Program-made: the position numbers and the translations under genes | Assembly: GCA_036925085.1 (NCBI GenBank) | Contig: JAUPFP010000138.1 | Coordinates: 108,684-172,683, forward strand | Source of the DNA: Brachycybe producta | Taxonomy: Eukaryota > Arthropoda > Diplopoda > Playtdesmida > Andrognathidae | DNA length: 64,000 nucleotides | Direction of reading: 5' to 3' | In this document: positions 18,149 to 23,629 of the stretch, piece after piece | Position numbering within the stretch: position 1 is the stretch's first letter | Layout: each line of letters opens with the position of its first letter | Notes under the pieces: generated by a model | The model's database searches: none | Told to the model about the DNA's origin: nothing | Seen by the model: only the letters and a program-made list of their open reading frames with translations

Positions 18149-19033
18149 TATTGCAGCTGCTGCATTTGTTCATTTGATGCCACGAAATGCAATTTTCTGA
18201 ATTTCTCAAATCCGTCTGATTATCATTTTTACTATCCGTCAAGTGCTGCCATCTGGCGAATTATTTCTTAACAAGAGCCTGTTATAATATAATATTATTA
18301 ATAATATTATGAATGATATTACGTAATTATTTTATAATATTTTAAAAATATTATCAAAATTTAACAACTGCATATTTACGCGGCATTTGTTGCCTTATTT
18401 TGAGAATATTTTAAGGATTTTTATAAATCCTTAAAATATTTTCAAAATAATTAATTCTAGAGCCCAACTATTAAAACAATTTCTTAATTATTTCTTATTA
18501 AAATTATGTACTTGTATTTATTATTTTCTTTGCTATTTTGCCAAAAAGTAAAAACTTTTTTTTTTTGAGGTATAGGATTTTTAACTTTTTAAATTAATGT
18601 TTCAAATGTTTGAAACATGTTTGGCGCTATAATCAACTATTACATAGAGTTCCTTTATAGAGAAAGGAACTTACTATTATACATACTATAAACTGTATTC
18701 GTGAACGAGCACCTTTTAATCGTGTTTTATTACTTATTTAGCGATTTAATATTCCGAAAACGCCCTAAATAGTTAGGACATTTTACAGAAATAGTAGTTT
18801 TAATTATTTTAAATATTTATTTGATCTTATTAATCATTGACAACAATAATAATGACATGCAATAATAACATTAATAATCATAATAATATTTAATAAAATT
18901 AATAATGCTAATAAAATGCAATATGCCTTAATTTAGGTAAAATAAAAATGAAATATAGTTTTAAATACTAACTTTTAATCAAAAATAAATCTTGATCATT
19001 ACATATATTCTAAAGACAACATGTAACATAAGG
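18149..19033. other. Spacer between ALG5 and AFG2A with an inverted promoter copy
   Basis: Very AT-rich. Near the ALG5 end, 18246-18255 on the minus strand matches the CTCF core (CAGATGGCAG). A nearly perfect palindrome covers about 18401-18441. At 18688-18762 is a 75-bp inverted copy of the sequence just upstream of AFG2A (see repeat entry). ATTAAA on the minus strand at 18979-18974 is a plausible AFG2A poly(A) signal. No coding potential. Confidence 0.6.
18688..18762. repeat. Inverted copy of the AFG2A upstream region
   Basis: The reverse complement matches 22880-22954 at 72 of 75 positions; similarity stops abruptly on both sides. The two copies bracket the whole AFG2A gene in inverted orientation about 4.1 kb apart. 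No adjacent coding sequence here. Confidence 0.9.
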
Positions 19034-22000
19034 TTATAATTCCTTATTCTTTCCTTTTGAATTGTATTCCTCATAAAAACTAAGTAATTTCTGCGAAATC
19101 CTTGGCTTCACCATGTTCAGAGCAATTTCAAAGTGTCCTTTATCGACATAGGTCGCATCCAAACATTCCTCCATTGCCTTTAAGGCTGCTTCCCGACAGA
19201 CGGCAACCACCTTTACGAATCACATTCGTACACAATTAATTCACGAACATAACATACGTTAACTTTGTATAAATACCTCCGCTCCCGAATAACCGTCGGT
19301 CTCGACTGCCAATTTCTGAACATCGACTTCTTTCCCGATCGGCATTTTTCTAAATTGGATGTTGAATATCTCTTTCCTGGTATCTTCGTCCGGTAATGGG
19401 ACGTAGACTATACGATCGAGACGACCGGGCCGCAGAAGAGCCTATCCGTGTGAACAAAAAAAAAAAAGGAATCGAGTAAAATAAAACCATTAAACCAATA
19501 AAAGATTTTTCTCGAAAAGGACTTTGTCTATCATGTCCGGTCTGTTAGTTGCTGCGAGTATCGTGACGCCTTTCAACATCTCGAGTCCATCCATTTCGGT
19601 CAATAGCTGCGCTAAAACACGATCTCCCACTTGAGTGCCTCCAGAAGAACTATTAATAAAAATCGTTTTTATGTCACCGTTTTTATTTGTAGCTATCTAC
19701 GATGTCTTACGATCCTCTTTCCGAAGCCAGTGCATCGATCTCGTCGAAGAAGACGACCGACGGAGCCGCGGCACGAGCTTTTCTAAACACTTCACGGACG
19801 GCACGCTCCGACTCGCCGACCCATTTGTTAAAAAGTTCGGGCCCCTTTTTTATAGATAAAATTCGCTCGTTTTATTTCGGATATACAAAATTAATTAGTA
19901 ATTATAATATTCGTCGTGACTTTGATAGCGATGAAGTTGAGTCCACTTTCAGTAGCCACCGCTTTTGCAATAAGTGTTTTCGAACATCCAGGTGGTCCGT
20001 ACATTAGTACTCCTTTGGGAGGTGTGATACCCAATCTCACGAAAGATTCGGGATGTTTCAACGGCCATTCGACAGCCTGTTTTAGCTTCTTTTTTAGATC
20101 GTTCTGTCCACCGATGTCATCCCAGTATACCTGAGAAGAAGACAATCGACGGACTAATTATTCTTCTTGTTTCAAACTAATGAACGTTCCGTTTACTTTT
20201 GGCACTTCGATCGTGATCTCACGTAGAGCACTCGGTTTGATTTCCCTCAACGGTGCTTTCATATCTTCGTAAGTGAGTACGACAGAACTCGGTTGAGGTT
20301 CCGAATTAATTCTATCTAAAATACGCATTCCAGCTATAAAAAGAAACATTTTTTCACAAAAGTGAAAAACTTTCATAAATGGAAGACGGAAAAAAACCTT
20401 GAGTACAAACAGCTGCCAAGTCAGAACCGACAAAACCGTGTGTTACACTGGCCAACTGCTCGATGTTATCATCGGTAAGATTATGCCTTACATTCTTCAG
20501 TAGTTTCTTTAAAATCTATTAATTAGATGCAACAATTAAATGCAATAGAGAAGAAGAAGAATTAGAATGACTGGTTTTACGTCGGCACGATTGGAAACTG
20601 TCGGAATGCCGATCTCGATCTCTTTGTCGAGTCGTCCTGGGCGCCTCATTGCAGTTTCTAAACTGTCCAATTTACTAGTTGTTGCAACGACTACGACTCG
20701 ATCTTTGGGATTTGCCTAAATGTTTGGAAAAGAACCCAATTTAAATTGGCCATTTATAGGCAAACATTACTAATATTGGACAACTAACTGGGAGATTGTC
20801 CATAAGTGTCATTAAGGTGGAAATCAGTCGTTGTTCCTGTTGAGTAGAAGAACTGGTCCGTTTCGAACAAAGCGTATCAATGTTATCGATGAAAATCACA
20901 CTTGGAGCTCTTCAGAGTGAAAAAATAAAAAAGCTTTTAGAGCTGGTTTAAAATTTCACTCGAACTCTGCTCATTCTGTCTTTCAGAAGCAAAATTAAGA
21001 GACACTTTTATATGTTTTAAAAACGAGACGGGTATTTTCAAGTTGATATCTTTTAAAATAAACTTTTTATATCAGTTTTAAAATGAACAAACTTTCACGA
21101 GGCATTTTTAATTTTTTGTCTATAAAAAGTTTATTTTGAAAGATGTCAGCATCCACCCGTTCTAGCTTCTAACAAACTTTCTCCTTAGGAATTGCTCTTC
21201 TGAAACAGCAAAAAATAAACAACAGTTCGAAAATCAGCTGTTCATAAAACTTCTTAAACCTTTCTATTGCATCGTTAAATATGTCTCTAAGTTTCGACTC
21301 TGTTTCTCCTAAGAACCTGGAAACCATTCGCAAGAAAAACAATTGCAAAACGTCGAAAAACATTAAAAAAAACTTCAAAGAAAAATAGTGTGATACCGAC
21401 TTGCTGTATATTTCAGGTCCACTGATGGAAACGAAACGATCTTGCATTTCATCGGCAATAGCTCGACCAATAAGCGTCTTTCCCGTTCCAGAAGGTCCGA
21501 AAAGTACAATTCCACGAGGTGGCTTAAGGCCTGAATGTAATGAAAAAGCTGTAAAGGCAACAAAAACCACCAAAATGGTTGTAAGAGGAGTTTAATTAGA
21601 TACCGTAACATGAAAATGTTTGTATTGCAGTTTCGGACATGAAGAGAATCTGGCGAATTTCGTCGATTTGTCTAGAAAGACCTCCGATGTCGTCAAACGT
21701 TGTCCTCACTACGTTAAATTTTTTAGACCTTTCAGATTTTTCTTTTGATGAAATGACTTTGACTTTTGTATCTGAATGAATGTAAAAACAGGTATCGATC
21801 GAAAGTGGTCGACTTTCGTGACACTGGCAAAGAGTGACGGAAGTGAACGAAGACAACGGTCGCCTCGGTGTCGAAGTCAATTCTTTAGAAGACGAAGCGA
21901 TCATAAGAGATTCTTCGAAAGAGATGTCGTCGTCACGAATCGAAGTTCCTTCTTCGTTTTCCGTACAGTTTACAACCAGATCTGACAAACCTTGACACAA

Positions 22001-22868: not shown

Positions 22869-23629
22869 TATCAACGAGACGTTTTTGGAATATTAAATCG
22901 TTAAATAAGTAATAAAACACGATTAAAAGGTGCACGTTCACGAATACAGTTTATATTTTTATGGGCGCCGCCATTTTTAACTAACCTAACCTATTATAAT
23001 TATTAAATTGACCTTTATTGGTATATAGATAATACAAAAAGAAAAGAAATACTAATATTAAAAAGAAATTTATTCTTTATTACTAAAATAATAAACACAT
23101 CTTATATTGTATATATTTAATTAAAATGATAATTATAAGTTTATATAACGATTATCATAGATTTATTTTTAATAAACGGAAGTGACGTTTCAGAATTTGC
23201 GACTTGTGCGGTTGCGCCGCAGTTAAAGAAAAAACAGGGTTCAACTTCCGGTTTTACTTTCGGCGTCGATTATTTTGAGTTCATTTAGAATAAAATTGGA
23301 CGAATTTAAAGAAGAAAAAAACAATCAGTTATTTTATATATATATATGTGTATTATAATTGCAGTCATGTATTATGTAACTGAATGACGTTTCTGTAACT
23401 GTTCTCCATTGTATTAAGTGAAGTTTTGATTATTTTAAACCCGAAAGGAAAGGCATTGTCGTTATTTTTCTATCTCTTCGATCCGTTTTTCGGACGGACG
23501 AAAACCACGTTTTTGGCTGTCTTATTTCTTCATATCTCCTTGATAATACCTTTTGAATGGTTAAAAATCCATGAAAACTAAGTGTTTCTACGTGAAATTC
23601 ACCGATATCTGCGCATCAAACGTTGAGAA
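22869..23629. promoter_or_regulatory. Putative bidirectional promoter, AFG2A / RBM26
   Basis: 761 bp between two divergent ATGs. The AFG2A side holds the 75-bp unit duplicated at 18688-18762 and a YY1-like motif (AAAATGGCGGC on the minus strand, about 22980-22970), typical of animal housekeeping promoters. The centre is AT-rich. The RBM26 side has a GC-richer patch (about 23200-23270, 23470-23515). The two start sites are not marked by TATA boxes that I can defend. Confidence 0.55.
22880..22954. repeat. Original-side copy of the 75-bp inverted pair
   Basis: Ends about 11 bases upstream of the AFG2A ATG, so it is 5'UTR or core promoter. It matches the reverse complement of 18688-18762 with three substitutions. 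Confidence 0.9.

Follow-up and report, generated by a model that had tools for sequence, protein, structure and literature searches.

According to previous studies, otherwise single-copy DNA that is duplicated in inverted orientation at the two ends of a segment is a mark of inversions that arose through staggered breaks in Drosophila (PMC3355041, PMC5080602). In the cases described there, which include 2h and 2q of Drosophila mojavensis and O4 and O8 of D. subobscura, single-copy DNA is present in inverted orientation at the segment ends, and the inversions were compared with the non-inverted arrangement. Templated inverted insertion at breaks is another described process, which in the yeast double-strand-break experiments reported leaves a short piece of nearby DNA, copied in inverted orientation, at the joining site, and the local insertions there are mostly about 5-34 bp long and of the fold-back kind (PMC11724301). 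Moreover, replication template switching, which is described as short-range, can make inverted copies in one step (PMC7954356, PMC8794818).

Here we describe a pair of inverted arms that brackets the gene AFG2A in a 64-kb window (64,000 nucleotides of contig JAUPFP010000138.1 of Brachycybe producta, hereafter C138). An inverted-repeat search of the window placed the arms at 18687-18762 on the plus strand (arm 1) and 22880-22955 on the minus strand (arm 2), each 76 nt long, identical at 73 of 76 positions (96% complementary) and separated by 4117 nt. About 1e-27 such pairs per 64 kb would be expected by chance, if base composition alone is considered and positions are taken as independent. Arm 2, with the leader sense on the minus strand, ends upstream of the AFG2A ATG at a distance of 9 nt. 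Arm 1, the leader sense of which is on the plus strand, has no gene attached and is located in the spacer that separates the 3' end of AFG2A from the 5' end of ALG5, at distances of 271 nt from the AFG2A stop codon and 538 nt from the ALG5 ATG. The original prediction, in which AFG2A was flanked by an inverted duplicate of 75 nt with 72 identities, is thus confirmed, its coordinates being correct to within one base at the outer end of each arm. When the flanks beyond both arms were aligned, they were without convincing likeness.

Like the Drosophila inversions, the AFG2A locus carries single-copy DNA inverted at the ends of a segment; however, it was read in its present order alone, and the Drosophila duplicates reported are longer overall, reaching 1 to 7 kb in D. 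mojavensis and occurring as 128- and 380-bp fragments in O8 (PMC3355041, PMC5080602). The arms also share with the yeast insertions the form of a short inverted copy of nearby DNA, but they measure 76 nt and would come from 4.1 kb away, and the same 4.1 kb stands against the short range at which template switching is described. The arm pair is ordinary in kind and unusual solely in its neat bracketing of one gene.

The coding region of AFG2A (SPATA5), as taken from the list of open reading frames, occupies 19034-22870 on the minus strand including introns, with the ATG at 22868-22870 and the stop codon at 19034-19036. Two of its exons match the Pfam family AAA, and a third matches AAA_lid_3 below the curated cut-off of that model. 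Among PDB chains, an 88-aa exon ORF matches "ATPase family gene 2 protein homolog A" at 4e-52 versus 2e-47 for transitional ER ATPase, and in the ranking of the same search three VCP-like ATPase chains score ahead of the AFG2 homolog A. An intron at 20959-21170 contains repeat pieces that recur near 27305, 36515, 46756, 52421, and 53766 in the window. The left neighbour is a minus-strand gene with its ATG at 18146-18148, as judged by reading frames, which we take to be ALG5 following the original prediction; one of its exons matches the Pfam family Glycos_transf_2 (glycosyltransferase family 2), and its only PDB match, a weak one, is to chondroitin synthase. To the right of AFG2A is a divergent plus-strand gene, presumably RBM26/27, with its first ATG placed at 23630. 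Three of its ORFs gave no Pfam match, and another carries a CCCH zinc finger below the curated Pfam cut-off. A literature search returned nothing linking SPATA5/AFG2 with an inverted repeat, nor SPATA5, ALG5, and RBM26 together.

The original prediction had suggested a genome search with the 75-mer for further copies. In the 295,300,729-base assembly, the 75-mer was found at four places, two on C138 and two on a second contig (C29). A 121-base query around arm 2, run with very common words skipped, returned the four known places again and nothing further at E<=10 across the assembly, so that the arms are not a dispersed repeat. C29 carries the locus in the same orientation as the window, with a longest alignment of 22,243 columns, 99.58% identity, 26 mismatches, and 22 gaps. 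We read C29 as the other haplotype, although the two contigs might possibly be unmerged overlapping contig ends. As C29 represents the same locus assembled a second time, we count two copies per haplotype. This number does not agree with a dispersed repeat or transposable element, for which many genome-wide copies would be expected. An assembly error is also unlikely, because both arms are present on two contigs that differ at these 26 mismatches and 22 gaps, though both contigs come from one assembly.

Arm 1 is identical in the two versions, while arm 2 differs by a single base, 22886, where C29 carries the arm-1 state; the arms on C29 are therefore identical at 74 of 76 positions. Gene conversion between the arms might have produced the state at 22886, and one mutation explains it equally well. 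Two arm differences in 76 nt are common to both versions, corresponding to a Jukes-Cantor distance of 0.027 (interval 0.003-0.098), and because these two are shared and the third is allelic, the duplication predates the allelic difference. The arm distance is about 23 times the allelic difference at the locus (about 0.12%, 26/22,243), so that the event is older than the present polymorphism there and probably fixed. The neutral rate of 0.0111 given for Drosophila (PMC3355041), here taken per site, lineage, and Myr, would put the age at about 1.2 Myr, an order of magnitude only, as this rate may not be that of the host. Such high identity in non-coding DNA had been attributed to either recent origin or constraint. 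The latter may exist but is not needed, as the two shared differences in 76 nt fit neutral decay.

Arm 1 stands at a disturbed site, where a repeat fragment without its tail, a 24-nt filler, and the arm follow one another. The fragment (18535-18662, plus strand) belongs to a dispersed repeat and is about 85% identical to its copies, with BLAST ends varying from 18650 to 18662. It ends 24 nt left of arm 1, cut before the TTAGG-rich tail into which the aligned copies run on. The search for this repeat gave at least 44 matches, of which 4 were the locus itself and the arms, and 40 were scored among 428 initial candidates. The same repeat is also found elsewhere in head-to-tail arrays with a spacing of about 600 nt and TTAGG-rich tails in the units read (C2:13245111-13248884). 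As for the filler (18663-18686, plus strand), the first 9 nt (18663-18671) repeat 18648-18656 in inverted orientation, which may be due to chance, because the same junction search gave four other 9-mers, three at the left junction and one at the right. For the remaining filler, no source of at least 10 nt was found within 17000-24500. The right flank of arm 1 was also considered as repeat-like sequence, and this was rejected, since 39% of 2000 random 30-mers from the window score equally well. Within arm 1, an AATAAA is present at 18726-18731 on the minus strand, which is the AFG2A sense strand, and others in the same sense are located before the arm (18816-18821) and beyond it (18517-18522). 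In addition, a near-perfect palindrome with 26-nt arms, a 4-nt loop, and 96% complementarity was observed in the ALG5 upstream region (18395-18450), and apart from the version on C29 it has no copy in the assembly at E<=0.001.

Three elements next to arm 2 are absent from arm 1. A GCCGCCATTTT motif (AAAATGGCGGC on the minus strand), which we take to be of YY1 type, is located at 22967-22977 on the minus strand, 11 nt outside the arm. It is followed by the CCTAACC/TTAGG tract ACTAACCTAACCTA (22980-22993) and by a second dispersed repeat (AAATTGACCTTTATTGGTATA..., about 22993-23069). Since all three are outside the copied part, the copied sequence looks like a leader and less like a whole promoter, although a TATAAA is included at the beginning of the arm. 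Elsewhere, AAT repeats of varying length precede all four copies read of the second repeat, where the CCTAACC tract stands here, and none of these four copies has the tract. The combination of tract and neighbour occurs at this locus only, even allowing up to 3 mismatches. The 14-mer ACTAACCTAACCTA itself has 386 exact places genome-wide, and 20 of them, picked by hand from the first 100 with obvious arrays avoided and hence a non-random sample, were inspected by eye. Six adjoin the repeat found beside arm 1, seven share another block, and seven have neither. The tract had been considered as the lost tail of the arm-1-side repeat, which would have spoken for an inversion; however, all six sampled tails continue with G, while the tract at arm 2 continues with T. 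The block shared by the seven places is promoter-like and multi-copy with small differences, reading about TTTCCTATATAAAACGATAAGATGGTAATGCGCATGCGC, and it presumably consists of a TATA-like element and an NRF1-type site.

With a little better than even confidence, we regard the arm pair as a local inverted duplication that occurred once, through DNA repair or template switching as we infer, and that has since drifted and is probably without function. A break repaired, or a stalled fork restarted, in the AFG2A-ALG5 spacer beside the truncated dispersed repeat would have led to the copying of 76 nt located a few nucleotides before the AFG2A ATG, 4.1 kb away, and to their joining into the spacer in inverted orientation. 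Arm 2 is presumably the donor, because it is attached to the gene and to a promoter-type motif. What this account leaves unexplained is why exactly one gene should lie between donor and insert. That point is accounted for if the pair is instead the scar of a small inversion, in which the 4.1-kb AFG2A segment was flipped after staggered breaks and the fill-in of a 76-nt overhang produced two inverted copies, one per breakpoint. Such an origin, which we consider possible but rather unlikely, agrees with a one-gene segment flanked on either side by DNA that is otherwise single-copy and duplicated in inverted orientation, and with break sites that are both outside the coding regions read. However, an inversion would place one break no more than 86 nt from the start codon of a housekeeping gene, and AFG2A would probably have received another promoter in the process, whereas templated insertion calls for no such exchange, because arm 2 has kept its connection with both the ATG and the YY1-type motif. 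Moreover, the TTAGG tract beside arm 2, which was the sole trace that might have linked the two outer flanks, failed inspection, being followed by T and not by the G of the 6/6 sampled repeat tails, and both assembled versions (n=2) have one orientation, with no alternative form. For the promoter and the tract, templated insertion is preferred over inversion, which is a matter of weight and not proof. The suggestion that the gene might flip by recombination between the arms finds no support, as the 2/2 assembled versions agree in orientation and the arms are only 76 nt long. An unrecognised low-copy repeat or mobile element end, to which the dispersed repeat near each arm could point, seems the least probable origin of all, for the matches of neither neighbouring repeat include the arm, and only 2 copies per haplotype were found at E<=10.

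The arms might also have acquired a function. Arm 1 had been suggested as a promoter firing away from AFG2A, but its leader sense reads rightwards into the AFG2A 3' end, so that any promoter there would be antisense. A functional second promoter, starting an antisense or non-coding RNA in that direction, would be consistent with the TATAAA that opens the arm and with the position of the other copy directly upstream of an ATG. We nevertheless consider it improbable, since neither the YY1-type motif nor the CCTAACC tract was included in the copy, the region 18002-19033 overlaps no ORF of at least 60 aa and has no Rfam match, and the divergence of the arms fits drift. The Rfam search of 17000-25000 at E<=1 gave a CRISPR repeat model as its only match, located outside the arms at 21671-21707, which was dismissed with 20.9 bits against a cut-off of 39. 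Alternatively, the arms could act in AFG2A RNA, where transcripts ending in or beyond arm 1 would be complementary to their own 5' leader and form a long hairpin. The sense-strand AATAAA inside arm 1 at 18731, the one beyond it at 18522, and a computed pairing of -103 kcal/mol for two full arms are in line with such a role. With use of a distal AATAAA, some or all of arm 1 would be included in the mRNA, which could pair with its own leader. However, through the AATAAA at 18821 the RNA could end short of arm 1, and this signal is probably not rare in 76 nt of AT-rich DNA, which makes a role of the arms in RNA very doubtful. It is a shade more doubtful still that arm 1 supplies an alternative poly(A) signal for some of the AFG2A mRNAs, the 3' ends of which would then be complementary to the 5' leader and close the message into a circle-like duplex, with repressed translation or entry into dsRNA pathways as the consequence. 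A literature search on self-pairing mRNA ends returned none relevant by title among the matches listed. If arm 1 were transcribed or used as a 3' end, a single repair accident would have produced a self-complementary message; as it stands, what the arm pair offers is mainly an example, namely a clean scar that local rearrangement left around a housekeeping gene.

Finally, the arms were compared with other local repeats of at least 40 nt and at least 90% identity within 10 kb, in the window and in 40 kb each of contigs C2 and C7. These 144 kb contain 24 rows of local pairs, including the arm pair and near-duplicate rows. Four other sequences among the 24 rows were checked for genome copy number, and three of them are dispersed, while one is a two-copy adjacent tandem pair, with two copies at full length and its last 60 nt dispersed. 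Two-copy duplications are thus also found locally at other places in the genome, the arms being the sole spaced inverted pair with two copies established in the 144 kb, with these four other sequences checked for copy number. A long imperfect palindrome with 91-nt arms, 85% complementarity, and a 20-nt loop is also present in the window at 7265-7466.
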